Source: Acidimicrobiales bacterium (GTDB lineage: Bacteria > Actinomycetota > Acidimicrobiia > Acidimicrobiales > MedAcidi-G1). From it: 64,000 nucleotides of DNA. The position numbers and the translations under genes were made by a program. Positions 44,081 through 55,944 of the stretch are shown here, piece after piece; position 1 is the stretch's first letter, and the number at the start of each line of letters is the position of its first letter. The DNA lies in the NCBI GenBank assembly GCA_030747595.1, contig JASLKK010000001.1:1-64000 (forward strand). The letters are read 5' to 3'. Under the pieces are notes generated by a model that saw nothing but the letters and a program-made list of their open reading frames with translations, was not told where the DNA came from and did no database searches.

Positions 44081-44094
44081 TTAGGTGCGCTTCA
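44081..44094. promoter_or_regulatory. Weak half-match to the island's metal-box motif
   Basis: TTAGGTGCGCTTCA has one good half-site (TTAGGT) and a degraded other half, 27 bases before the ATG of the epimerase-dtxR operon. It could be a weak autoregulatory site, but the match is poor. Confidence 0.2.
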
Positions 44095-44120
44095 CATCGA
44101 AAGGCTTACACTGCCCCGGG

Positions 44121-45140
44121 ATGATGCAGCCACACCACCATCGGGTTACTTACCTAGTTACTGGTTGCGCCGGTTTCATCGGCTCGACTTTGGTCGATCG
44201 CCTGTTGGTCAACGGGCATCCGGTGGTGGGGGTTGATTGTCTGACGCCTACCTACGAAGTGGCGGTTAAGGAACGCAACCTCACCGGTGCGATTGAGCAT
44301 CCAGGCTTTTCAATGCGGCGAGATGACCTAGCCGTGTCGGATCTCGAACCCTTGCTGGATGGAGTGGACACCGTGTTTCATCTGGCTGGTCAACCGGGCG
44401 TTCAGACTTCGTGGGGGACAGGCTTTGCTGACCACTTGGAGCGAAACGTATTGGCTACCCAACGTCTGATGGAAGCCTGCCTAGCCACTGGCGTACGGCG
44501 GGTGGTGTTGGCATCGACCTCGTCGGTTTACGGAGCGGTCGACGGGGCAACAACGGAGGAAGTTCCACCGCTCCCACTGAGCCCCTATGGCCTTTCGAAG
44601 TTATCGATCGAGTACCTCGGTGCGCTGTATGGCGCCCGCGGTTTGGACGTGGTGCCGTTGCGGTTCTTCACCGTTTATGGCCCACGCCAAAGGCCTGACA
44701 TGGCCTTTCACCGGATGGTTGAAGCAGCCCTTGGTGGGCCGGCTTTTCCATTGCGAGGCGACGGTAGCCAACGGCGGTCCTTCACCTTCGTGGACGACGT
44801 AGTAGATGCTGTGGTCCGGATAGCCATGGAACCGGGTGCGTCAGGCACGGTGTTCAATGTGGGTTCGTCGATCGCCACGCCTCTTATTGACGTTGTGGAC
44901 CTAGTTGGTCGCCTTGTTGGCCATCCGGTCCCCGTTGAGTACCACGAGCGCCTGCCTGGGGATCCTGATTTAACGCACGCCTGTGTGGATCGACTGCGAG
45001 ACGCCATTGGCTGGGTGCCCACCACCACCTTGGAAGATGGTCTGGCAGAGCAGGTCGCCTATCACCGGGCCACTCGAAGTCTGAGAGGGTCGACCATCTT
45101 CGGAAGCGATTTCCCGCTGTCAGATAGCGTGATGGTGTGA
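44121..45140 (+). CDS. NAD-dependent sugar nucleotide epimerase/dehydratase
   Basis: 339 residues from the ATG at 44121 (a second ATG follows at once); an in-frame start at 44085 is less likely. TGCAGFIG at 14-21 binds NAD, Ser133-135 (ASTSSVYG) with Tyr156 and Lys160 (SPYGLSK) form the extended-SDR catalytic set, and RFFTVYGPRQRPDMAFHRMV is typical of GalE/UDP-glucuronate-epimerase-like enzymes. It should convert a UDP- or dTDP-sugar. Its TGA overlaps the GTG of dtxR, so a sugar-nucleotide enzyme is made together with the metal regulator. Codon use is less GC-biased than in the genes to the left. Confidence 0.85.
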   Translation: MMQPHHHRVTYLVTGCAGFIGSTLVDRLLVNGHPVVGVDCLTPTYEVAVKERNLTGAIEHPGFSMRRDDLAVSDLEPLLDGVDTVFHLAGQPGVQTSWGTGFADHLERNVLATQRLMEACLATGVRRVVLASTSSVYGAVDGATTEEVPPLPLSPYGLSKLSIEYLGALYGARGLDVVPLRFFTVYGPRQRPDMAFHRMVEAALGGPAFPLRGDGSQRRSFTFVDDVVDAVVRIAMEPGASGTVFNVGSSIATPLIDVVDLVGRLVGHPVPVEYHERLPGDPDLTHACVDRLRDAIGWVPTTTLEDGLAEQVAYHRATRSLRGSTIFGSDFPLSDSVMV

Positions 45141-45808
45141 CTTACGAGACTCCTGAGTACCACCCGGCGTTCGAGGAGTATTGCGAGACCATCTTCGAGT
45201 TAGCTGAAGACGATGTTGACGTAATCCAAGCCCGCATCGCCGAACGACTCGAGGTATCTCGGCCTGCAGTGTCCGAGATGGTTCGTCGCATGGAGAAAGA
45301 GGGCATGGTCTCAGTCGACGACGGCACGATTGCCTTGACCAGCGACGGTGCAAGACTTGCCAGACAGGTGGTGCGGCGCCACCGGCTGGCTGAGTGCTTC
45401 CTGACCGACATCCTGGGTTTGTCGTGGACCGATGCCCACCACGAGGCCGGTAGGTGGGAGCACGTCATCTCCGGCCCGGTTGAGGAGGCCCTGATGCGTG
45501 TCCTCGATGGCCCCATGACCTGCCCCCACGGCAACCCCATCCCTGGAGCCGGCTATCAGGAGCCTGAGAATTCCGCTGTGCTTAGCGACCTAAGGCCGGG
45601 TGTGGAGTTCACTGTGGAGCGGATTCCTGAGGAGTTGGAGTTTCGAGATGGTCTGCTCGAGTTCTTAGAAGGCGCAGAGATCAAGCCGGGGAACAGGGGT
45701 CGGGTGACCGCCAGTTCACCAGATGGCACTACCACCATCGAGATCGCTGGCGACTTTGTCGGCGTTGGCGCCTTCGCTTCGGCTCGCATCCTCGTCGCCC
45801 TCGACTGA
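45137..45808 (+). CDS. DtxR/IdeR/MntR-family metalloregulator
   Basis: 223 residues: winged HTH at 8-72 (QARIAERLEVSRPAVSEMVRRMEKEGMV), metal-binding/dimer domain 73-147, and a C-terminal FeoA/SH3-like domain at about 152-222. Compared with C. diphtheriae DtxR, ancillary ligands are kept (His82, Glu86, His101 for H79, E83, H98). The primary site is altered: Met10 is Glu14, Cys102 is Gly105, while Glu108 and His109 remain. Glu14 and Glu17 instead resemble MntR. It may therefore sense iron, manganese or both. The GTG start overlaps the epimerase stop; its 3' end overlaps the convergent membrane-protein gene by 93 bases. Confidence 0.88.
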   Translation: MTYETPEYHPAFEEYCETIFELAEDDVDVIQARIAERLEVSRPAVSEMVRRMEKEGMVSVDDGTIALTSDGARLARQVVRRHRLAECFLTDILGLSWTDAHHEAGRWEHVISGPVEEALMRVLDGPMTCPHGNPIPGAGYQEPENSAVLSDLRPGVEFTVERIPEELEFRDGLLEFLEGAEIKPGNRGRVTASSPDGTTTIEIAGDFVGVGAFASARILVALD

Positions 45809-47191
45809 CGCGCGACGGCCCGCCAGGACGGCCCAGGCCAGCAGGACCAGAGTCCAGACGAAGGCCCACAACAGGTCGCTGGCCGAGCTCCGTTGCAGGT
45901 CGGGGAACAGGCGAGAGAACCACCGGTAACCAACCCACGATGTCTCGGTGACGTCGACTGCTAAGGCCCGACGGCCAGTGGAAGCCTCGATGGCCACCCA
46001 GATCCATCCAGCAGCTCCCACGGTTGCTGACGCGACGAGCGGGAGAAGCATTCGGCGTGCCCGGTCCACTGCTATGGCAATGACCACTACGACGAGTGGG
46101 AGAATGACGACGACCTGACGCCCCGGCCACCACCAGCCGTGCATGGTGAGTGCCAACCAGGTTGCTGTAGCCCAACCGGTGGCAATCGGAAGCGCCAGAA
46201 GCGACCATCCGGCGGAACGGCGGGCCAGCAGTGCACCGAGGGCTGGCGCCATTGCCAGCCAGGCGGGGGACCACGAGGCCAGACCAAACGGCCGATCGAT
46301 GAGAAGGCCGACCAGACGTCGGGACCGACCCCAGTAGTCGGGATCGAAGCCCACGACTCCGAACTCGCTGGTCACGAAGTGGTCGCCAGCTGAGTAAACG
46401 GTCCATCCACCGTAGACCTGCACGTGGAATACGACATAAAGGATGCCCATGGCCGACAGGGCCAGACCGCCGATTAGAAGGAGACGCCGCTGCCCTAAGC
46501 GCCAGAGGTTCCTAGCGGCGATTCCGACCACAGCAGCGGTAGTTGGGACGTACTTCACCGACAGCCAAGGCAGGGCAGTCGCGGCCACTACCAAGGCCAT
46601 GAGCAACTGGGTCCGAGACCTCGTTTCAGCCGCTTCGACTTGGAGGCCCGAAACCGCTCCGACAGCAACCACCATGGCTAGGGCGGCGGGCAGTTCTGGA
46701 TAGATCTGACTGCCGTAGGCAGTCAGCGGCGGTGTTGCCGATAGAACACCCACCACCCAGGCTCCGGTTCGTGTTGATACACCGAAGCGACGGACGGCCA
46801 CCCACAGGGTCGCCGCCGCGAGCAGGCCAGCAAGGGCCGCGATCGAGGCTCGGGCTGCCACCCAACCGCCGACACGCATGGGCAGGGCCAACATCGCTGG
46901 CAGGAGGGGGTCATGGGGGCTGATCCGTTGACCCTGATCGTTGAGGTCGATGGTCTGAGTGTTAAGGCCAATCTGATGGAAGGGTAGGTATCGCTCTTCG
47001 TCGATCTCGTCGGACACATCCAGATCGAAGTCTTCGCCCAAGCTGATGGCGGTCATCAGGTACTGGGGTTCGTCCACACTGACCTGAGCTCCATAGGTGG
47101 TCCGCGCCGGGATGCCTACGGCGGCGGTAATGGTGGCCACCATGCCTACGGCCACCATTGCCCGGAGGAGACCTCTTTTCGCCAAGGTCAT
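45716..47191 (-). CDS. Polytopic membrane protein, GT-C (GT39-like) glycosyltransferase candidate
   Basis: 491 residues with about eleven to twelve hydrophobic segments. The first large extracytoplasmic loop has VSVDEPQYLMTAISLGED, an acidic DE motif after TM1 like that of GT-C glycosyltransferases (ArnT/PMT type), followed by ISPHDPLLPAMLALP. These enzymes use polyprenyl-phosphate sugars outside the membrane. The family call is moderate because no full signature is visible. It follows fbpB by eight bases, so it belongs to the fbpA-fbpB transcript. The C-terminal 31 codons overlap the 3' end of dtxR on the other strand. Confidence 0.65.
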   Translation of the reverse strand: MTLAKRGLLRAMVAVGMVATITAAVGIPARTTYGAQVSVDEPQYLMTAISLGEDFDLDVSDEIDEERYLPFHQIGLNTQTIDLNDQGQRISPHDPLLPAMLALPMRVGGWVAARASIAALAGLLAAATLWVAVRRFGVSTRTGAWVVGVLSATPPLTAYGSQIYPELPAALAMVVAVGAVSGLQVEAAETRSRTQLLMALVVAATALPWLSVKYVPTTAAVVGIAARNLWRLGQRRLLLIGGLALSAMGILYVVFHVQVYGGWTVYSAGDHFVTSEFGVVGFDPDYWGRSRRLVGLLIDRPFGLASWSPAWLAMAPALGALLARRSAGWSLLALPIATGWATATWLALTMHGWWWPGRQVVVILPLVVVVIAIAVDRARRMLLPLVASATVGAAGWIWVAIEASTGRRALAVDVTETSWVGYRWFSRLFPDLQRSSASDLLWAFVWTLVLLAWAVLAGRRASVEGDEDASRSEGANADKVASDLDGGSAIW

Positions 47192-47199
47192 GACCCGTG

Positions 47200-48906
47200 T
47201 CAGTCGAGGTGATCAGCCCGGCGGACCACCAAGAACCAGGTGAGAGCACCAGACAGAATCACTAAGACCATTGCCAGCAGGCCAGCCTCGGCCACGAAGG
47301 CGTCTTCGAACGACTGGAAGATCTTGGTGGTCAGTGTGGGGAAGTCAAACGGTGCCACCAGAAGGGTGATTGGCAACTCCTTCATGGTCGATAGCAGCAC
47401 TAGGCCACCGCCGGCGACTAGCCCGGGGGTCACAAGCGGAGCGTCCACTGTGGCCAGACGGCGGAAAGACCCAGCGCCAAGCACCCTTGCTGAATCGTGC
47501 AGACGGTCAGGCACGGCGGCTACTGCTATTTGAGCAGCGCCGAGGGCTTGGGCCCCGAAGCGGACCATGTAGGCGAACACCAGCACGATCAGGGTGCCGC
47601 GGAGGTGCTCGGCTGCCCAACTGCTACGAAGGGTCCAGAAGAACATGGCCAGAGCGATGAGCAGACCGGGCATAGCAAAGGTCGAGATGATCACGTTGCC
47701 GGTGATCGGGCCAACCCGAGAGTGGTAACGAGCCAGCAGTACCGCAGTGGGCAGGACGGCAACAACGGCCACGCACGCGGCCACCACGCTTACCCAAACA
47801 GTGTTCCAGGCCGGGCCGACGATATCTGAGGCGTTGATAGCCAGAGAACGGCCGCCGGTTGCGTCTCGCACCAGACCTGAGATTCCCCAGTCGGCCAGAG
47901 CTGCAGCCGGAGCAACCAAAGCGAGACCGATCGTGCCGACGACCAGAGCCAGCCCAGGCAGCCGCCAACGATCTAGTGGCGTGGTAAAGAGTCGGCTGGT
48001 GGAGGCGCGCGCCGGTGGTCGCTCACTGAGCCGGCGGCTACCGAGGCGCTCACCGCCGACCACGACCACGGCAAGAACAAGCAGGATGGCCGAAAGGGCG
48101 AACGATGTGGGCTGGTCTGCCAGACGGGTCGTCCAGATCGCACGGGTCAAGGTGTCGTAGCGCATGAGCTGGACGGCTCCGAAGTCACTGATGGTGTAAA
48201 GGCCGACCAGTAGTGCCCCTGAAGTGATGGCGGACGCAGTCTGAGGAAGAACGACTCGACGGAAGGTGCTGAACCCGGAGTCGCCAAGAAGTCGGGCACT
48301 TTCTTCTAGCGATCCCGGAAGGCTGCGAAGTCGTGCGGCAACTGGGAGGTAGACGTATGGGTACGTGAACAGGGTGAGAACTAGCCAGGCGCCGAACAGC
48401 CCGCGTAGTTCGAACGTATGGTTGATACCAACTGCTTGCAGGAGGTCGTTGGCCAGTCCGCCTGGATTGAGGGTGCGGATAAATGCCGCCGCCCCGACGA
48501 ATGTCGGATAGGCCAGCGGCAGGGGTAGTAGCACCCGCCACATGCGGCGACCCGGGAGGTCGGTGCGGGCGGTCAGCCAGGCTAGAGATGTCCCCAATAC
48601 GGCAGTGCTGGCGGATACGAGGGCGGCAAGTACCACACTGCGGCGCAGCGGCTCCAGGGTGCGTGACGAGGTCAGTAGCCCCAACGGGTCGCTGTCGCTG
48701 GTGATATTGCGCCAGATCAGATATAGGGCCGGAAAAGCGAAAAGGACGCCAACGGTAAACGCCGCAGCCGTCACCGTCAGCGGTGCCCGCTTCCGACCTT
48801 TGACCCTCCGCTCCGGCGGGCCAGCGGTTCCGGGACCCCAAGCGGGGTCAGCCGGCGAGGATTCCACTCTCCCTGATGATGCGCTCCGTCTCCTCGAAAC
48901 CGCCAC
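47200..48906 (-). CDS. fbpB: Ferric iron ABC transporter permease, fused double domain (FbpB-like)
   Basis: 568 residues with about twelve membrane segments in two homologous halves, each with an EAA-type cytoplasmic loop: LEESARLLGDSGFSTFRRVVLP in the first half, LHDSARVLGAGSFRRLATVDAPL in the second. This two-in-one permease is typical of FbpB/AfuB/ThiP iron and thiamine importers. With the FbpA-like binding protein next to it, iron is the likely solute. The ATG at 48906 overlaps the fbpA end by 59 bases; a GTG at 48867 would shorten the overlap to 20. The ATPase lies apart at 53174. Confidence 0.88.
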   Translation of the reverse strand: MAVSRRRSASSGRVESSPADPAWGPGTAGPPERRVKGRKRAPLTVTAAAFTVGVLFAFPALYLIWRNITSDSDPLGLLTSSRTLEPLRRSVVLAALVSASTAVLGTSLAWLTARTDLPGRRMWRVLLPLPLAYPTFVGAAAFIRTLNPGGLANDLLQAVGINHTFELRGLFGAWLVLTLFTYPYVYLPVAARLRSLPGSLEESARLLGDSGFSTFRRVVLPQTASAITSGALLVGLYTISDFGAVQLMRYDTLTRAIWTTRLADQPTSFALSAILLVLAVVVVGGERLGSRRLSERPPARASTSRLFTTPLDRWRLPGLALVVGTIGLALVAPAAALADWGISGLVRDATGGRSLAINASDIVGPAWNTVWVSVVAACVAVVAVLPTAVLLARYHSRVGPITGNVIISTFAMPGLLIALAMFFWTLRSSWAAEHLRGTLIVLVFAYMVRFGAQALGAAQIAVAAVPDRLHDSARVLGAGSFRRLATVDAPLVTPGLVAGGGLVLLSTMKELPITLLVAPFDFPTLTTKIFQSFEDAFVAEAGLLAMVLVILSGALTWFLVVRRADHLD

Positions 48907-49945
48907 CCAGCGAGTCGAAGTCGACTGATCCGATCTCTAGAGCGGTCAGCGCTGGAAGGATCGGGTTGGGCTTTATGTCGGCACCAAGTGGGTACTCGAA
49001 TGTTTGATTAGTGAAATACAACTGGGCCTTAGGGCTGAGTAGGTAGGCAAGCAGCTGGTGAGCGGCGCTGCGTTCCTCGGTCGCCCCCAAGATAGTGGCA
49101 GCTGTGATGATCAGGAGCGAACCGATGTCGTTGGGACCGAAGTCGTGGTTCTCGGCCCGGTGAGCGTCGCCGGCCGCCGCTGCCTCCTGGTACTGGTAGT
49201 AGTGGTTGACGAGGCCCATATCAATCTCGCCCCGGCCCGCAGCCTCCACGATCGCCCTGTTGTTGGGGTAGTACTCGGCATCGTTGTCCACCATGTCGTG
49301 TAGCCATTGAGTGGCCACTTCTCCACCGTGTTCATCGCGGAATACGGTGAACCAGTCCTCAAATGATCCGTTGGTCGCCGGTATCCCGACTCGTCCTCGG
49401 TAGCGATCCTCAGTGAGGTCGAAGACGGATTCCGGGAGTTCGCTATCTGATACCAGGTCGATGTTGCGGACCAGTACCCGCTTGCGGCCCGAGAATCCGA
49501 TCCAAGAACCGCTAGAGGCGCGGTTCTGTTGATCAACGAGTTCGAGAACCTCGTCGTCGATAGTTCCGAGGAGGCCGCGACTCTCGAGGAAACCAACTGG
49601 CCCGGGTGATCGTGAGAGGAAGACATCAGCTTCAGTGGCGTTGCCTTCCTCGCCGATGAGAATCGCTAGGTCAGTGGAGTTGCCCCAGCGGACTCGGACG
49701 TCAATTCCCGTTTCGCAGGCGAAAGCTTCGATGATGGGCCTAATCAGGTACTCGGTGCGGCCTGAGTAGATGGTTACCGTTTCGTCGCGTTGGTCGCGAC
49801 ACTCCCCGGTCACTATGGCGGCGGCCTTTTCGGAGAGCTCTTGCTTATTGCTACTGCCGCAGGCGGTTGTGAAAGTGGCCGCGATGGCGATGGCGACAAC
49901 GGTCGCAGTGATGTGACGCAGAGTTGAGTCTTCGGGCTTGCTCAT
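48848..49945 (-). CDS. fbpA: Ferric iron ABC transporter substrate-binding lipoprotein (FbpA-like)
   Basis: 365 residues from the ATG at 49945; an upstream start at 50017 would run through the putative regulatory box. The hydrophobic leader ends in FTTAC with Cys29 for lipidation. VTIYSGRTEYLIRPIIEAF (Tyr60) and VNHYYQYQ with the twin Tyr249-Tyr250 match the tyrosine iron ligands of FbpA transferrin-like proteins. It should capture Fe3+ outside the membrane and hand it to FbpB. It is first gene of the leftward fbpA-fbpB-GT-C operon; the shared 13-base motif lies 37-49 bases upstream. Confidence 0.9.
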   Translation of the reverse strand: MSKPEDSTLRHITATVVAIAIAATFTTACGSSNKQELSEKAAAIVTGECRDQRDETVTIYSGRTEYLIRPIIEAFACETGIDVRVRWGNSTDLAILIGEEGNATEADVFLSRSPGPVGFLESRGLLGTIDDEVLELVDQQNRASSGSWIGFSGRKRVLVRNIDLVSDSELPESVFDLTEDRYRGRVGIPATNGSFEDWFTVFRDEHGGEVATQWLHDMVDNDAEYYPNNRAIVEAAGRGEIDMGLVNHYYQYQEAAAAGDAHRAENHDFGPNDIGSLLIITAATILGATEERSAAHQLLAYLLSPKAQLYFTNQTFEYPLGADIKPNPILPALTALEIGSVDFDSLGGGFEETERIIRESGILAG

Positions 49946-49979: not shown

Positions 49980-49994
49980 TAAGGTGTACCTAAC
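49980..49994. promoter_or_regulatory. Candidate DtxR-type metal box 1 (TAAGGTGTACCTAAC)
   Basis: Lies between divergent fbpA and the flippase/GT2 gene. The 13 bases AGGTRTACCTAAC (49982-49994) recur at 54327-54339. Half-sites resemble DtxR/IdeR boxes (TTAGGT/ACCTAA), but the spacer is two bases rather than the seven of the classical 19-base box. Confidence 0.6.
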
Positions 49995-50044: not shown

Positions 50045-51682
50045 ATGCTGCGTTCCGAAGCCGGCCGCGGATTGGGGACACGATGGTGGCCGGCTCTCGT
50101 GGTTGGACTGCTCGCCTTGGTGGTAGCGGCAGCGGCAGTTACCGCTGCTGTTGATGTGGACGCGCTCCGACGCGCTTGGGACAGGGCAATCGGTGACCCG
50201 GTTGGCGTGGTGGTTGCTTGTGCAGCCTTCGGCCTCGCTTTTGTCTTGCGGGCTTTAGCCTGGCGGCGGGTCTTGCCGGGGCTGCCCCTTGGGCAGGCAT
50301 TGGCAGGCATCCATCTTGCCTTCGGCGCTAACCACTTATTGCCATTCCGCCTTGGTGAACCGCTGCGAATTCTGAGCGTGACTCGGCGTACGCCGGTTGG
50401 TCTTGAGGCTGCCACTGCTTCCACAGTTGCTTTGCGCGCTGCTGACATCGCAACCGTGGCAGGGCTGGGCTGGTTGATAGCACCGCGCGCCTTTTCCCGA
50501 TTAGTCGGTGGATGGGCCTGGCTACTAGCGACTGTTGTGCTCGTTGCCGGCGTATTGGCTTGGTTGTCTCTGCGTCGGCTTTCTCGACTCGATCTGTCAC
50601 AGGTTCGCCTTCCGGGACCCGTCGCCTTCGTCATGACCGTGGCGGCATGGCTTTTGGAGGCGGTTCTGGTGTGGCAGTGCGCTCGATGGGCGGGCATCGA
50701 GTTGTCAGCATTTGACGCTGTACTAGTTACGACGGTGGCTGTCTCGGCACAGATTGCGGCTATTGCTCCGGGTGGATTTGGGACTTATGAGGCGGCTTCC
50801 GTGGCCGCCTACGCGGTGCTCGGTCATGGTGCTAAAGATGCCTTGGTTGCTGCCTTGGCCGCCCACGCTCTTAAGACGGCATGGTCGCTGTTGGTCGGTG
50901 CTGTCGCCGTGTGGTGGCCCCAGCCCGGCGTGTTGGGCCGTTTCCGACTGCCGGCTCACCTGCCACTGGCGCCTGATCCTGCTCCGGCGGGGCCTGTCGA
51001 CGCACCCGTGCTGCTATTCATGCCGGCCCTGAATGAGGAGGCGACCGTAGGTCGCTGTGTGGAGCGGGTGCCCTCAGAAGTTTGTGGGCGCCGAGTTGAG
51101 GTGCTCGTAGTCGACGACGGATCCACTGACCGGACCGCTGAAGTGGCCCAAGCGGCTGGTGCCACGGTGGAGTCCTTCCCTTCTTGTCGCGGTCTCGGTG
51201 CTGGAGTGCGCTACGGGTTGTCCGTCGGTGTGGCGAATGGGGCTGCAGCCATCGCTTTTTGCGATGCTGATGAAGAGTACCCACCGGAGGAGTTGGAGAA
51301 CTTGGTCGCTCCGATTCTTGCTGGTGAGGCTGATTATGTGGTGGGTAGTCGCTTTGCCGGGACTATCGAGCACATGCGACCGCACCGACGCTTCGGGAAC
51401 AAGGTTTTGAGCCGTCTACTTTCGATCGTGGCTCGACGCCGAATAAATGACGGGCAGACCGGTTACCGGGCCTTTTCTCCGGCAGCGGCTCGAGCCGCCG
51501 AGGTGGTGCATGACTTCAACTACGCCCAGGTTCTGACTCTGGATCTTTTGGCCAAGGGTTTCCGGTACCACGAGGTGCCTATCAGCTACTGCTTTCGGAC
51601 CACAGGCGAGAGTTTCGTAAAACTGGGCCGCTATCTGCGCAAGGTTGTTCCTGCCGTCTATCGGGAACTGAATACCGCTTGA
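50045..51682 (+). CDS. Fusion of LPG-synthase/UPF0104-type membrane domain and GT2 (polyprenyl-P-mannose synthase-like) domain
   Basis: 545 residues. Residues about 15-290 form seven to eight membrane segments with FGANHLLPFRLGEPLRI and AAIAPGGFGTYEAA, the pattern of the lysylphosphatidylglycerol-synthase/UPF0104 flippase-like family. Residues 320-545 are a GT2 domain: VLLFMPALNEEATVGRCV, VVDDGSTD (355-362), the DxD-like CDADEEYPPE at 406-415 and GSRFAGTIEHMRPHRRFGNK, as in dolichol/polyprenol-phosphate mannose synthases. It may make a polyprenyl-phosphate sugar and move it across the membrane. It is divergent from fbpA across metal box 1. Confidence 0.82.
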   Translation: MLRSEAGRGLGTRWWPALVVGLLALVVAAAAVTAAVDVDALRRAWDRAIGDPVGVVVACAAFGLAFVLRALAWRRVLPGLPLGQALAGIHLAFGANHLLPFRLGEPLRILSVTRRTPVGLEAATASTVALRAADIATVAGLGWLIAPRAFSRLVGGWAWLLATVVLVAGVLAWLSLRRLSRLDLSQVRLPGPVAFVMTVAAWLLEAVLVWQCARWAGIELSAFDAVLVTTVAVSAQIAAIAPGGFGTYEAASVAAYAVLGHGAKDALVAALAAHALKTAWSLLVGAVAVWWPQPGVLGRFRLPAHLPLAPDPAPAGPVDAPVLLFMPALNEEATVGRCVERVPSEVCGRRVEVLVVDDGSTDRTAEVAQAAGATVESFPSCRGLGAGVRYGLSVGVANGAAAIAFCDADEEYPPEELENLVAPILAGEADYVVGSRFAGTIEHMRPHRRFGNKVLSRLLSIVARRRINDGQTGYRAFSPAAARAAEVVHDFNYAQVLTLDLLAKGFRYHEVPISYCFRTTGESFVKLGRYLRKVVPAVYRELNTA

Positions 51683-51742: not shown

Positions 51743-53146
51743 TCAATCCTCGACCACGAATGTCTCGAACTCGGCGAGAGCCGTCTGCCAGGCCTCGTGA
51801 TCGAAGGAGCCGTCAGTCTTGAGGGCGTCGGCGGCACTGACCCCCATGCGCAGTACGTGGTGAAGGTTGTCGGGGGTGTACAGACCTTGCCGTCCGAGGA
51901 CCACAAGGCGGTCGAGGCTGTCGGTCCACTTGGCGATGGTGCCGAGATCGTTGGCATAGCCGGTTCGGTAGATCGGGTAGACGTGGGTCAGCCTCCTGGT
52001 CTCGGTGGCCACCAGAAGGGGCCGTGGCAGACCTTGGCCGACAAGGGAATCGGCCATCCAGTCGCCCAATTCGTTGTCAGTGGCCGCCCATATCTCGTCG
52101 CCTACTCGGCATGGAAGTTCGCAGCACAGCACGGTTCGGCCTTCGGGGTCAGGGCCGTCTCGGTAGTTCCGGGGCTCTGAGAGTCGGCTGATTGGCGTTT
52201 CGGGCGATGGGAGGTAGTGGGCGTCGTAAGGCGTGTACTGGTCTTGGTCACAGACCAAGAACACCAGAACCATGGCCCGGTGTTCCAATCGGCCCACGGC
52301 CTCGATCACAGATTGGGGCGGTCTTGGCGACACAAGGTTGATCAGGGCGGTGCTGTTGAGGGTCGATAGCACCCGATGTGCTGGGAGATCCCCATCCGTC
52401 AGTTTGATCGTCGCAGAGCCGTCGTTGAGTCGGATGCCGGTGATCTCGGTTGAAAGCTGGATGTCCACACCCGATTCGATGGCTGACTCAGCTAATCGTT
52501 CGCAGATACGCCCGTAGCCGTCGCGCGGGTATAGAAACGTTCGACCCGTCGGAGAGACACCGCGTGCAATTTTACGGATGATTGCTAGTGGTGAGCCGGC
52601 AGATACTCGACGGCGGGCCAGGGAGGCGTCGAGTTCGTCGGCGCTGACTCCCCACAGCTTCGTGGCGTACGGTTCATAAAATGCTTGACTGACCGTAGGT
52701 CCGAGCCCGGCTCGGAGGTGGGCAGCGAAGGTGTCGGCACGGGGTCTTCGCAACGGTGATGTCATGGCATCTAGCGCGGCACCGAGGGCGAACTTAGGAC
52801 TCACACTGCGTAGAAGGTCCAAGGTCCGTAGCGGGAACGCGATCCATCGATCGTCGAGACGGATGCGGCCGTTGCGAGTGCGGACCTGCAACTCGTCTCC
52901 GAGAAGGTCCCTAAGGTCGGCGAGAATCTCTGGCTCGATCGAGGGGTGGAGACGGTGCGAACCTAGATCAACCCTTTGGCCCGCGATGGTAGGGCTGGCA
53001 GCCATACCTCCGACTTCGTCGGCCCTTTCGAGGAGGACTACTCGGTGGCCGGATTGCGCGGCCCGACGGGCGGCCGCCAGTCCGGTTGGACCTGCGCCGA
53101 TAACTACTACCGGGTGTTCTGAGACAGTCGGCTTGGCGGCGCCCAT
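51743..53146 (-). CDS. FAD-dependent oxidoreductase, UDP-galactopyranose mutase/protoporphyrinogen-oxidase-like
   Basis: 467 residues. VVVIGAGPTGLAAARRAAQSG at about 13-33 and VVLLERADEVGGMAAS bind FAD. RVDLGSHRLHPSIEPEI and FYEPYATKLWGVSADELDASLARRR are shared by UDP-galactopyranose mutases and the related amine-oxidase-like proteins of polysaccharide clusters. The C-terminal GRQGLYTPDNLHHVLRMG is the second FAD contact. A role in sugar or glycolipid modification is likelier than haem synthesis because of the neighbours, but is not proven. It follows fbpC by 27 bases on the same strand, in one transcript. Confidence 0.78.
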   Translation of the reverse strand: MGAAKPTVSEHPVVVIGAGPTGLAAARRAAQSGHRVVLLERADEVGGMAASPTIAGQRVDLGSHRLHPSIEPEILADLRDLLGDELQVRTRNGRIRLDDRWIAFPLRTLDLLRSVSPKFALGAALDAMTSPLRRPRADTFAAHLRAGLGPTVSQAFYEPYATKLWGVSADELDASLARRRVSAGSPLAIIRKIARGVSPTGRTFLYPRDGYGRICERLAESAIESGVDIQLSTEITGIRLNDGSATIKLTDGDLPAHRVLSTLNSTALINLVSPRPPQSVIEAVGRLEHRAMVLVFLVCDQDQYTPYDAHYLPSPETPISRLSEPRNYRDGPDPEGRTVLCCELPCRVGDEIWAATDNELGDWMADSLVGQGLPRPLLVATETRRLTHVYPIYRTGYANDLGTIAKWTDSLDRLVVLGRQGLYTPDNLHHVLRMGVSAADALKTDGSFDHEAWQTALAEFETFVVED

Positions 53147-53173: not shown

Positions 53174-54244
53174 TCAGACCCTAGGAAACGCGGTCGTCGG
53201 TAGACCCCGGTAGGTAACGACTACCCGGTCGCCTCGGACGGCTGGAGAGACGGGCCCGGTGCGGATCCGGAGGCCAGACCCATCGTCGAGGCGGACTAGG
53301 ACCATGGCGTCATGCCCGTAGTACTCGACGAGCTCGACCGAGCCGTGCCCGGGGACGTCATCCGAGGGGCTGCTGTCGACCTTGGCAACCAGGAGGTCTT
53401 CTGGTCGGAGCAGCACCTCTACCGGCCCATCGTTGTGGCCATCGGCATTACGCAGGAGGGAGACATCACCGAAGGGGAGGTGGGCGGTGGCGTCGCTGGC
53501 CTCGGCCCCGAAGAGGTTGACCTCGCCCACGAAGGAGGCGATCCACCGGCTGGCTGGACGTGTATAAATCTCGGATGGAAGGGCGAGTTGCTCAATTCGG
53601 CCATCGTTCATTACGGCGATCCGGTCACCTAACACGAAGGCCTCTTCCTGATCGTGGGTAACAAACACAGCGGTGATGCCGAGCTCGGTGAGAAGTCGGT
53701 GTACTTCGGTGCGAATCTCTGTGCGAAGTCCGGTATCGAGGTTGGAGAACGGTTCGTCGAGTAAAAGAACCTCTGGCCGGGGAGCTAGGGCCCGTGCGAG
53801 AGCCACGCGCTGTTGCTGTCCACCGGAGAGGGTGGCCGGTGAGCGATCTCTGAACCCTGTGAGGCCGACAGTTTCCAGGACTTCGTCAACGCGGCCATTG
53901 TTTCGTTGGTCGCGAGGGAGACCGTAGGCCACGTTTCGGGCGACTGTGAGGTGGGGAAACAGCGCCCAGTCCTGAAAGACCATCCCGATCCGTCGCCGGT
54001 CTGGCGGTACCCAAGTCCCCGGGCCGACCAGCGTTCGTTTATCAATGACCACCGAGCCGGCCTCGGGACGTTCCAAGCCGGCCATGGTTCGCAGGAGCGT
54101 GGTTTTACCGCAACCGCTTGGTCCCAGGAGGACAAGGACCTCACCGGATTCGACGAGGAGGTCCACTCCCTTCAGTATCGGTGTGTTGTTCAAGGCAACT
54201 TGGATGTTGCTAATCAGAAGCTTCGGAGCCGATCTCGTTTCCAT
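53174..54244 (-). CDS. fbpC: Ferric iron ABC transporter ATPase (FbpC-like)
   Basis: 356 residues. Walker A is GPSGCGKTT at 41-49, the Q-loop is in MVFQDWALFPHLTVARNV, the signature is LSGGQQQR at 139-146, Walker B is LLLDEP at 160-165 and the H-loop His197 is in VTHDQEEAF. The last 110 residues are a TOBE-type domain (LRPEDLLVAK, VELVEYYGHDAMVLVRLDDG), as in FbpC/PotA-like importers. It should energise FbpB, though it is encoded 4 kb away and on a separate transcript with the UGM-like flavoenzyme. It is controlled from the region containing metal box 2. Confidence 0.9.
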   Translation of the reverse strand: METRSAPKLLISNIQVALNNTPILKGVDLLVESGEVLVLLGPSGCGKTTLLRTMAGLERPEAGSVVIDKRTLVGPGTWVPPDRRRIGMVFQDWALFPHLTVARNVAYGLPRDQRNNGRVDEVLETVGLTGFRDRSPATLSGGQQQRVALARALAPRPEVLLLDEPFSNLDTGLRTEIRTEVHRLLTELGITAVFVTHDQEEAFVLGDRIAVMNDGRIEQLALPSEIYTRPASRWIASFVGEVNLFGAEASDATAHLPFGDVSLLRNADGHNDGPVEVLLRPEDLLVAKVDSSPSDDVPGHGSVELVEYYGHDAMVLVRLDDGSGLRIRTGPVSPAVRGDRVVVTYRGLPTTAFPRV

Positions 54245-54323: not shown

Positions 54324-54339
54324 AGTAGGTATACCTAAC
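54324..54339. promoter_or_regulatory. Candidate DtxR-type metal box 2 (AGTAGGTATACCTAAC)
   Basis: Lies between divergent fbpC and the FEA1-like gene. It includes the perfect 12-base palindrome TAGGTATACCTA (54326-54337) and the 13-base AGGTRTACCTAAC shared with box 1, in the same orientation. The half-site spacer is two bases. Confidence 0.62.
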
Positions 54340-54395
54340 AGACGCTAGAAAGCGAAGCGTCTAGCCCACCTGATCGTTTCGGAGGAGAGACACGG

Positions 54396-55637
54396 ATGAG
54401 TGAAGTCCAGACTTTGGAAAGAGCAAAGAAAGTAGTGAAGGCAAGTCGTCGATCGAAGATCATCGGCGCGTTCATGGTGCTTTCAATGGCTGCAGCCGCC
54501 TGTGGCAGCGATGACGGGGCTGCTGTTCGCGAGATTGGCTCAACTAGTGCCTCCTCTTCCGGTTCCGGTTCTGGCTCTGGTTCCGGTTCTGGTTCCGGCT
54601 CGGCTTCCGGCCCAGCCTCGGCTTCCGGCTCTGGTTCGGCGAGTGGTAGTGCCAGCGCCTCAGCGGCCGCTTCTGCCGCAGATCGCACCGTAGGTGACGA
54701 TGGTTATGACTATGCCTCTGATGTGAGTAGTCACCGCATGATCCCGGCAGATGTCTGTGACGTGAACGCTTTGCTGCCCAAGGGTGAGGCGATCGATTGG
54801 GCAGCTGTCGAGGCCGTCTACCAAAACGGCGGTAACTCGGTGAAGTCGAGCGGAGCCGTCCGGACCTTGGCAGGTTTCGCTTCCGGTGAGGGCAAGAAGC
54901 ATGGTGTCGACGAGTACTACGGCACTGCCACGCCTCTGGATGATTTCGTGTCATCGGCGATCCAGGGAACAGGAGAGTTCGCTGGGGAGAGTGACTCGGT
55001 TAGACGCCAGGGTGTCCAAAAGGGCATTCAGAACCAGATCTTGGTTGCGTGGACAGTTCACGAGTTGCACGCGGCACTGGCCAAGGCTGTTGATGGAAAC
55101 TTCGATGCAGAGTCAGGTGCTCCCCACAACTGGGACGAGGGCTGGGCGTTCTATTCCGGGGCCGAGCCGGGTTGCGCCGCTTACGGGACCGGCAACAAGC
55201 GAGGCAAGGACTTCGGAACCCTTTCTGATGATGGTGAGACCAGTGTTGCTAACGCAAACATCCTTGCTCATTTCATTGCTGGCCGGGATGCCTTGCTGGC
55301 GGGTGATGCTGCCGGGGCTCAGGCAGCGGCTGATGAGATCAAGCGCAGTTTGGTTGTCATCTATTCCCAGGCGTCGCTGAAGTACGCCAAGAAGGTCGAT
55401 AGTGACTTGGCTGGTGGTGATCAGGAGGCAGCAAGGATCCATCAGGCTGAGGGCTACGCCTTCTGGCGGGTTCTTGCTCCGATGGTCGCAGGCGCTGGAG
55501 CTGATACCGCCACTGTGGATGCCTTTTACAGCCTTTCGGCGCAGCCTGCCGCAGGTGGCTACGACCTAATCGCTGACGCCATCGCCCCGGCACTCGAAGC
55601 CCACGGGATTGGTTGGACAGACCTTGGGGAGTACTGA
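54396..55637 (+). CDS. FEA1-like iron-assimilation lipoprotein
   Basis: 413 residues. A basic n-region and hydrophobic stretch end in SMAAAAC, giving a lipidated Cys36. Residues 49-93 are a Ser/Gly/Ala-rich linker. The rest is a helical domain with VAWTVHELHAALAKAVDG, PHNWDEGWAFYSG (241-253) and HQAEGYAFWRVLAPMV, which I match from memory to the low-iron-inducible periplasmic FEA1 family of algae and its bacterial relatives; a distant imelysin-like protein is the alternative. It should bind or deliver iron at the cell surface, feeding FbpABC. A strong GGAGGAG Shine-Dalgarno precedes the ATG, and metal box 2 lies 56 bases upstream. Confidence 0.72.
   Translation: MSEVQTLERAKKVVKASRRSKIIGAFMVLSMAAAACGSDDGAAVREIGSTSASSSGSGSGSGSGSGSGSASGPASASGSGSASGSASASAAASAADRTVGDDGYDYASDVSSHRMIPADVCDVNALLPKGEAIDWAAVEAVYQNGGNSVKSSGAVRTLAGFASGEGKKHGVDEYYGTATPLDDFVSSAIQGTGEFAGESDSVRRQGVQKGIQNQILVAWTVHELHAALAKAVDGNFDAESGAPHNWDEGWAFYSGAEPGCAAYGTGNKRGKDFGTLSDDGETSVANANILAHFIAGRDALLAGDAAGAQAAADEIKRSLVVIYSQASLKYAKKVDSDLAGGDQEAARIHQAEGYAFWRVLAPMVAGAGADTATVDAFYSLSAQPAAGGYDLIADAIAPALEAHGIGWTDLGEY
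54540..54672. repeat. Low-complexity Ser/Gly/Ala coding repeat
   Basis: Imperfect GGTTCC/GGTTCT/GGCTCT hexamers followed by GCCTCGGCTTCC-like units, encoding the SGSGSG...SASAS linker of the FEA1-like lipoprotein. Such linkers separate a lipid anchor from its domain and can carry O-linked sugars. Confidence 0.85.
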
Positions 55638-55688: not shown

Positions 55689-55803
55689 ACGGGATCCGGC
55701 GGGATCCTGCGTCTACCGGTCCCGGGCGGGGGCTGGTGGATTGCCGGCGGTTTCGTGGCGTCGAGGCACCACGGAACCGCCGGCCCGTTCGCGTCTCTCG
55801 ACT

Positions 55804-55944
55804 ATGGATCCGGTGGACGCCGCGCTCCTCCAGATGGCCATCCTCCTTTTGATCCTTGGGACGGCAGCGGTGAACGGTCTTGTTGTCTTTGTCGGCGTTC
55901 GCCGGTTCCTAGTCGACGGCCGGCTCGCTCTACCTAGGTACTGA
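55804..55944 (+). CDS. Small single-pass membrane protein, hypothetical
   Basis: 46 residues from ATG at 55804: a short acidic start, a hydrophobic helix LLQMAILLLILGTAAVNGLVVFVG and a basic C-terminus (VRRFLVDGRLALPRY), so the positive-inside rule puts the C-terminus in the cytoplasm. There is no clear Shine-Dalgarno and no family is recognised. It lies in the 323-base gap between the FEA1-like gene and maf, after the hairpin. It may be a chance frame. Confidence 0.4.
   Translation: MDPVDAALLQMAILLLILGTAAVNGLVVFVGVRRFLVDGRLALPRY

Follow-up and report, generated by a model that had tools for sequence, protein, structure and literature searches.

An FEA1-related lipoprotein gene clustered with genes for an FbpABC-type importer, a DtxR-family regulator and two putative glycosyltransferases in a MedAcidi-G1 bacterium

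The window, that is, the whole analyzed stretch of 64,000 nucleotides (positions 1 to 64,000 of contig JASLKK010000001.1, assembly GCA_030747595.1, Acidimicrobiales bacterium), contains an uninterrupted open reading frame for an FEA1-related lipoprotein (hereafter FEA1), which lies in a cluster with fbpABC and a DtxR-family regulator gene, DtxR-like boxes, and the genes denoted GT2 and GTx (Table 1). The frame starts with ATG, its translation begins with MSEVQTLERAK, and GGAGGAG is located at 54381–54387, 8 bases 5′ of the start codon. The initial annotation, made from the letters alone, described a lipobox, a long Ser/Gly/Ala linker, and a PHNWDEGWAFY-type motif, all of which were recovered. 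Inspection by eye and by pattern located a hydrophobic segment ending in A-A-A-C at Cys36, the arrangement of a bacterial lipoprotein, for which acylation is predicted. It is followed by a stalk in which 25 of the 63 residues (37–99) are Ser/Thr and 28 are Gly/Ala, and PHNWDEGWAFY occupies residues 243–253. The observation is hence confirmed.

The assignment of the domain to FEA1 was also upheld. Pfam Fea1 (PF07692) covered residues 82–410 with 89.1 bits (profile 8–334 of 359; cut-off 25 bits), and NCBIfam NF038033, named “FEA1-related lipoprotein”, matched over profile positions 2–406 of 406 (E = 2.4e-178), well above its cut-off. The HMM check against the Fea1 and imelysin families, proposed at the outset, thus returned Fea1 and no imelysin match at E ≤ 1 in the Pfam search; lack of a Fea1 match or a clear match to another family, either of which would have spoken against the assignment, did not occur. 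PF07692 was matched by all 37 aligned domains, consisting of that of the window and 36 related ones. The protein therefore belongs to a family that is already named and does not represent a new category. The name, as shown in the NF038033 entry, carries no described function, and a literature search confined to open-licence papers found no paper on the role of prokaryotic FEA1.

Table 1. Features of the FEA1 gene cluster in the window.
Feature	Position	Strand	Basis or remark
NAD-dependent sugar epimerase	44085..45140	+	Pfam Epimerase 1.5e-48
DtxR-family regulator with FeoA domain	45137..45808	+	Fe_dep_repr_C 4.1e-28; NF053665 170 bits, cut-off 290 (below)
GTx, GT-C-fold membrane glycosyltransferase	45716..47191	-	Starts 8 bases after fbpB
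FbpB, two-domain permease	47200..48906	-	Pfam BPD_transp_1, 2 stretches
FbpA, ferric-iron-binding lipoprotein	48848..49942	-	5.3e-67 to solved iron-utilization protein
Second DtxR/IdeR-like box TAAGGTGTACCTAA, between fbpA and divergent GT2	49980..49993	.	
GT2, LPG_synthase_TM fused to family-2 glycosyltransferase	50045..51682	+	Pfam; near FEA1 in relatives
FAD-dependent amine-oxidase-like protein, putative	51743..53146	-	Pfam Amino_oxidase 2.2e-20; weak UDP-galactopyranose mutase similarity
FbpC-type ABC ATPase with TOBE domain	53174..54244	-	Pfam ABC_tran 4.3e-39, TOBE_2 3.3e-7
DtxR/IdeR-like box GTAGGTATACCTAA, between fbpC and FEA1	54325..54338	.	57 bases 5′ of FEA1 ATG
FEA1-related lipoprotein, 413 aa	54396..55637	+	Pfam Fea1 4e-25; NCBIfam NF038033 592.9 bits, cut-off 250
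Lipobox Cys36 codon, AAAC	54501..54503	+	Translation, position
Ser/Gly/Ala-rich stalk, residues 37–99, proposed O-glycosylated	54504..54692	+	Composition; archaeal stalk/glycosyltransferase-neighbour association
FEA1 domain, 316 residues, all-helical model	54687..55634	+	AlphaFold2 mean pLDDT 97.0, pTM 0.94
UPF0014/FetB-like permease gene relic	55741..55944	+	Frame reading; relatives

FEA1 is divergent from fbpC across a metal-box-like palindrome, as had been stated in the initial annotation, whose reading of the gene as an FEA1-like iron lipoprotein is supported by its surroundings: a ferric-type FbpA, the DtxR-family regulator, and the boxes back an iron role separately from the domain itself. 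Among the PDB sequences matched by FbpA at E ≤ 1e-4, 25 of 28 are named for iron, and the remaining three are YfuA, sfuA, and an “extracellular solute-binding protein, family 1”. The nearest named NCBIfam models for FbpA, FbpB, and FbpC are those of 2-aminoethylphosphonate transporters, all matching well below their cut-offs. The ferric-type FbpA, the two-domain permease, and the ATPase in one cluster make up an FbpABC ferric importer, whose transport activity is predicted. As listed, the fbpB frame shares 59 bases with fbpA and is followed after 8 bases by GTx, which was counted in favour of an operon. Downstream of FEA1, both ends of the UPF0014/FetB-like gene are legible and its middle is absent (or misassembled); longer open copies lie downstream of FEA1 in L024, L025, L026, L028, L029, and L030.

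The palindromic box upstream of FEA1, together with the regulator in the cluster, has the make-up of a DtxR/IdeR regulon, in which binding of the regulator is predicted. Seven sites with at most one mismatch to TTAGGN4CCTAA, including both boxes of the window, were found in the genome (2.46 Mb). The Poisson chance of two of these seven falling in the 253 intergenic bases concerned is 2.6e-7 for this post hoc pattern, which was chosen after viewing the promoters of the window and of archaea; the box test on relatives is hence taken as support and not as an independent prediction. The reversed control pattern gave 26 genome sites against 7, so the box is not enriched genome-wide. No recognisable iron-uptake gene was seen by eye at the other five sites, at least one of which (on contig C5) falls within a long frame, and no wider regulon is therefore claimed. 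When the 19-base IdeR consensus was used with at least 14 matches, only the box between GT2 and fbpA was found within the window.

For the relatives, 280 bases upstream of the lipobox codon were searched, and random windows from the same loci were used as controls. The exact box was located upstream of 30 of 38 archaeal FEA1 genes and a box with at most one mismatch upstream of 36 of 38 (0.9% and 1.5% of random windows); the corresponding numbers for bacterial genes were 6 and 15 of 33 (0.4% and 1.6%). When domains of at least 95% identity were counted once, these became 22/29 and 28/29 for archaea and 5/28 and 13/28 for bacteria. Nine of 80 loci were left out (L094, L100, and seven bacterial ones with an open 5′ end or no lipobox match); in certain GC-rich frames the first lipobox match may be placed too far 5′, and related genomes are non-independent. 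No box with 0–2 mismatches was present in eight of the nine Chloroflexi loci tested.

Structure prediction, which had been suggested as a check, was performed for the FEA1 domain with AlphaFold2 using the 37-row alignment, and the confident all-helical model (Table 1) is built of fourteen helices and lacks any strand of at least three residues. Transferrin-type folds consist of alpha/beta lobes, and such a fold was rejected for the modeled domain. Profile searches detected no solved relatives; the best sequence matches (E = 9e-4), to dihydrodipicolinate synthase over 63 residues and to Ser/Gly linkers, were taken as chance or composition. Foldseek gave no match among solved structures at E ≤ 0.001. 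A second structure comparison placed alpha-catenin in the top rows (Z = 6.4) and an imelysin chain at rank 12, and both were read as sharing common helical arrangements with the model. Scans of viral contigs revealed no FEA1 homologues, and viral structure models gave no Foldseek match to the domain at E ≤ 0.001. DUF4856 weakly matched 8 of the 37 rows (best 9.3e-6) and may be a distant relative.

Nine residues (H113, D119, R156, R203, E223, H244, N245, D247, and E248) are invariant in 37/37 rows, and H222 (34), E352 (36), Y104 (36), Y142 (36), Y323 (34), and Y330 (36) are nearly so; the conservation of GAPHN..DE is to some extent a product of the scan, in which that string was a search pattern. 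Such a set of His, Asp, Glu, and Tyr residues is what would be expected of a metal site, whose putative position is drawn from this conservation. A duplication within the domain received weak support from hhalign (probability 35%, E = 4e-4, versus E = 0.06–0.38 for three control pairs).

GT2 gave NCBIfam matches to AglJ and to a dolichyl-phosphate hexose transferase, both below cut-off, and is likely a polyprenyl-phosphate sugar synthase. GTx matched no Pfam family. Its model, built from a 17-row alignment (pLDDT 81.8), clearly has the GT-C fold: Foldseek gave two matches at E ≤ 0.001, both to ArnT, and the top structure rows were tied among Pmt4 (9i5l_A, Z 22.7, rmsd 3.9, 361 aligned), ALG12 (22.1), ArnT (22.0), and Pmt1–Pmt2 (21.9), with AftB-type enzymes also among the matches. 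D40 and E41 are invariant in 17/17 rows, and we take this pair to be the GT-C acidic motif in the first outside loop. Owing to the tie, GTx is called GT-C-fold and not Pmt-like, and its fold cannot separate protein from lipid acceptors.

An association between stalk and transferase was observed among the relatives. At 12 of 40 archaeal loci, the divergent neighbour of FEA1 belongs to a single group, the representative of which matches PMT_2 (4.3e-10). Archaeal stalks accompanied by this neighbour (10/10 readable of the 12 loci) are 71–104 aa long with 35–67 Ser/Thr, versus 13–27 aa with 2–7 Ser/Thr for those lacking it (26/26, at least 2 kb upstream); four loci were left out, namely L061 and L094 owing to masking, L091 for its short upstream sequence, and L100 as truncated. 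Counting near-identical domains once leaves 8 archaeal loci with PMT_2 and 19 without. The four PMT_2-bearing rows of the tree form one clade (98/91), so that the comparison probably amounts to a single evolutionary contrast. Bacterial stalks with GT2 or GTx nearby (24 loci) are 41–126 aa long and contain 9–51 Ser/Thr. Only two bacterial loci lacking both genes could be evaluated; their stalks measure 22 and 31 aa, and their Ser/Thr counts (9 and 12, respectively) fall within the lower part of the range seen with GT2 or GTx. Fourteen loci were excluded because of open ends, masking, or short flanks. Taken together, the GTx fold, the similarity of GT2, and the stalk–transferase association suggest that the transferases modify the FEA1 stalk. 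A fusion of LPG_synthase_TM, type I phosphodiesterase, and family-2 glycosyltransferase (group of L041:4503-7691) was also observed upstream of FEA1 at 7 of 10 Chloroflexi loci.

Among 48 genomes of the family, 7 have an FEA1 gene scoring above cut-off, and PF07692 is matched in 3 of a sample of 396 genomes from the phylum; both counts include the genome of the window. Only fragments at contig ends were seen in G026 and G030, and several genomes have a contig break within the FEA1 gene near the repetitive stalk, which makes absences uncertain. A scan of a genome collection (84,980 species, one genome each) with two peptide patterns, around QKGI and GAPHNxDE, yielded 77 FEA1 loci; relatives with neither pattern are missed. 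The Acidimicrobiia group was defined as 23 of these, labelled Acidimicrobi- (16), Candidatus Microthrix (4), or only Actinobacteria/Actinomycetota (3), and the others are labelled Chloroflexi/Dehalococcoidia (10), Euryarchaeota/Poseidoniales (39), or otherwise (4: L056, L098, L099, and L101). L079 is labelled Rhodobiaceae and was counted with the archaea (40 loci) on its archaeal-type sequence and neighbours. In a tree of 37 domains, for which only a midpoint root was available, the archaeal genes form one clade (100/100) within a 25-row group that includes 12 Acidimicrobiia rows (100/100). This suggests a transfer of FEA1 from Acidimicrobiia-like bacteria to archaea.

Linkage was counted at loci having at least 5 kb on both sides. 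For the Acidimicrobiia group, GT2, FbpA, and FbpB were each found at 11/11 loci, FbpC and FAD at 10/11, and GTx at 9/11, with FbpA and FbpB being distant relatives only (22–31% identity) at L031, L032, and L044. The Chloroflexi likewise showed GT2 and GTx at 8/8, FbpA at 7/8, and FbpB and FbpC at 2/8 each; over all ten Chloroflexi loci, FbpB/FbpC are nearby in only three. At the thresholds used, none of GT2, GTx, FAD, FbpA, FbpB, and FbpC was found near FEA1 at the 40 archaeal loci. Those with both flanks (n = 18) instead carry a PF01497-type binding protein (13), a FecCD-type permease (12), a CREG/HugZ-type protein (13), and flavodoxin (7), each neighbour group being named from one representative. 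At least one iron-type or Phn-type transport neighbour is present at 27/40 archaeal loci, and no iron-type neighbour was found at 13/40, several of which are on short contigs. These lineage-specific neighbour sets indicate that FEA1 is paired with different importers in different lineages.

Of 17 genomes from the genus of the window, the same 4 carry FEA1, GT2 (E ≤ 1e-80), and the FAD gene (E ≤ 1e-100); two such sets of four would agree by chance once in 2380 cases, kinship being ignored. FbpA is 75–100% identical in these four genomes. Ten of the 13 FEA1-less genomes possess only a more distant FbpA (47–52% identity), and three of the 13 have none at E ≤ 1e-10; in G015 both kinds are present, the second of them incomplete.

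Further neighbours were observed near FEA1 in relatives. One group (L081:3707-5812; also L059, L061, L063, L077, L078, L082, and L092) at 8/40 archaeal loci encodes a transferrin-like protein beside the FEA1 gene, the representative of which matches Phosphonate-bd (4.8e-40), Transferrin (2e-27), and, by phmmer, lactoferrin (1.6e-24). Another (L080:9159-11591), at 21/40 archaeal loci, follows FEA1 directly or one gene later; its members are mostly about 770–810 aa long and of no clear family, with a weak CarboxypepD_reg match below cut-off. At L098:7923-11651, labelled Deltaproteobacteria, FEA1 is directly 5′ of a TonB-dependent receptor gene, which is another iron-type context.

On this basis, we propose that FEA1 is an iron-regulated surface lipoprotein whose sugar-coated stalk bears a domain that captures ferric iron and delivers it to FbpA, an account that we hold to be probable by a modest measure. 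When iron is scarce, the DtxR-type repressor would leave the boxes, and FEA1, fbpC, fbpA, fbpB, GTx, and GT2 would be produced. GT2 would load polyprenyl phosphate with sugar inside the cell, and GTx would transfer this sugar outside to Ser/Thr of the FEA1 stalk, which may raise and shield the helical domain. Iron binding and stalk glycosylation are both postulated from sequence: Fe(III) would be held by conserved His, Asp, Glu, and Tyr residues, the candidates being H113, D119, H222, E223, H244, D247, E248, and E352, and would then be passed to FbpA for import by FbpB and FbpC. The FecCD-type importers, flavodoxin, and HugZ/CREG-type genes near archaeal FEA1 were regarded as separate support for an iron context. 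Weighed against this account were the Chloroflexi loci, mostly without a box (eight of the nine tested) and with few FbpB/FbpC, and the 13 archaeal loci without an iron-type neighbour. The same applies to the long-stalk contrast of archaea, probably that of one clade, to the Ser/Thr overlap in bacteria, and to the matches of GTx to ArnT and ALG12, whose substrates are lipid-linked glycans.

The sugar genes could alternatively serve another structure: FEA1 would partner FbpABC in iron capture, and GT2, GTx, the epimerase, and the FAD protein would build a surface polysaccharide or glycolipid unrelated to the stalk. This fits the epimerase and UDP-glucose dehydrogenase-like genes that are nearby at some loci, and the similarity of GTx to ArnT, ALG12, and AftB-type enzymes, the first two being tied with Pmt4. 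It does not, however, account well for a GTx gene placed only 8 bases after fbpB, or for a GT2 that, at E ≤ 1e-80, is confined to the FEA1-bearing genomes of the genus. Chloroflexi moreover keep GT2 and GTx by FEA1 (8/8 with full flanks) even without FbpB/FbpC nearby, and archaeal stalk length tracks the PMT_2 gene; we consider this division of labour rather unlikely.

The metal held by FEA1 could also be other than ferric iron, e.g., Mn, Zn, or Co. The DtxR family includes Mn sensors, MntR models match the regulator of the window below cut-off, and Ot-Fea1 is also zinc-responsive according to the accessible text of PMC4855317. Against this stand the ferric-type sequence of FbpA, the FecCD-type, flavodoxin, and HugZ/CREG-type contexts of archaea, and the finding of iron with Ot-Fea1 in PMC4855317, and another metal appears quite improbable. 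That the protein is an imelysin/EfeO-like (M75) iron-linked helical protein and not an FEA1 member is very improbable: the model is indeed all-helical and imelysin chain 3n8u appeared in the structure comparison (Z 5.3, rmsd 4.9, 128 aligned), but unrelated helical bundles in that list score similarly, and the imelysin family is absent at E ≤ 1 where both Fea1 and NF038033 exceed their cut-offs.

The account of a ferric catcher on a sugar-coated stalk may be extended to planktonic bacteria and archaea jointly. FEA1 would then be the prokaryotic counterpart of the phytotransferrin system, that is, an iron-regulated helical ferric catcher on a stalk that is sugar-coated by a dedicated, co-regulated protein O-glycosyltransferase, delivering iron to whichever importer is present (Fbp, FecCD, or Phn-type). 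The stalk and transferase module would have had two or more origins involving distinct GT-C enzymes, GTx for bacteria and PMT_2 for Poseidoniales, and the archaeal genes would derive from Acidimicrobiia-like bacteria. We put this wider scheme forward tentatively, as a possibility short of even chances. The evidence across the cluster, foremost the stalk–transferase link and the box common to bacterial and archaeal genes, makes the find itself worth testing.

Growth is iron-limited across large parts of the sea, and FEA1/ISIP2a proteins are one important means by which algae cope with this. A prokaryotic version in uncultured plankton, linked to an ABC importer and possibly to an enzyme that adds sugar, would, if true, offer a simpler system for testing the debated job of the FEA1 domain, and would bear on the origin of the algal proteins. 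The stalk correlation furthermore provides a concrete and falsifiable client for a GT-C family without a Pfam name.

Algal FEA1/FEA2, Ot-Fea1, and diatom ISIP2a contain the same Pfam domain, PF07692, as the window protein. In the available parts of PMC4855317 and PMC7676907, the algal FEA1/ISIP2a proteins are described as iron-regulated. Iron was detected with Ot-Fea1 on native gels, and the role of Chlamydomonas Fea1 is called debated (available text of PMC4855317) or proposed but never demonstrated (excerpt of PMC7676907). ISIP2a-type phytotransferrin binds Fe(III) with high affinity in a carbonate-dependent manner (same excerpt). Domain duplication is common to Ot-Fea1 (as given in that part of PMC4855317) and prokaryotic members, namely L047, a 771-aa frame with two FEA1 domains, and L005, in which the first copy is cut by the contig edge. 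The window FEA1 differs from the algal and diatom proteins in being prokaryotic, predicted to be lipid-anchored, borne on a Ser-rich stalk, and modeled as all-helical, and its gene adjoins those of an ABC importer, endocytosis being the route of diatom ISIP2a in the portion of PMC7676907 at hand. The archaeal gene encoding CREG_beta-barrel/DUF2470 (HugZ-like; group of L075:12851-13753), present at 16/40 FEA1 loci, loosely recalls the CREG partner of diatom phytotransferrin. According to the accessible section of the CREG paper, sequences with extra domains, HugZ included, cluster apart from CREG1. The extra domain of the archaeal protein, together with the window genome having no CREG match at E ≤ 0.001, argues against a close parallel with phytotransferrin.

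NF038033 matches the window protein over nearly its full length, and the linkage to fbpABC, DtxR, and glycosyltransferase genes is absent from its entry. FbpA, the two-domain FbpB, and FbpC of the FbpABC (SfuABC/HitABC) systems are all present in the window cluster, with FbpA being of the ferric type. To our knowledge, FbpA is the sole extracytoplasmic binder of the classical systems, whereas the window cluster adds a second lipoprotein and two glycosyltransferase genes. Actinobacterial protein O-mannosylation relies on Ppm1 and Pmt, the latter modifying other proteins, as far as the consulted parts of PMC5882110 and PMC12757957 (the second for the Pmt targets only) describe. The window genes would resemble this pair as a lipid-linked sugar synthase and a membrane transferase of GT-C fold acting outside; GTx differs in lacking a Pfam family, in a Pmt4 match tied with ArnT and ALG12, and in its location in an iron-uptake operon. 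New here is the clustering of FEA1 with the likely lipid-linked-sugar synthase GT2 and the GT-C-fold transferase GTx.
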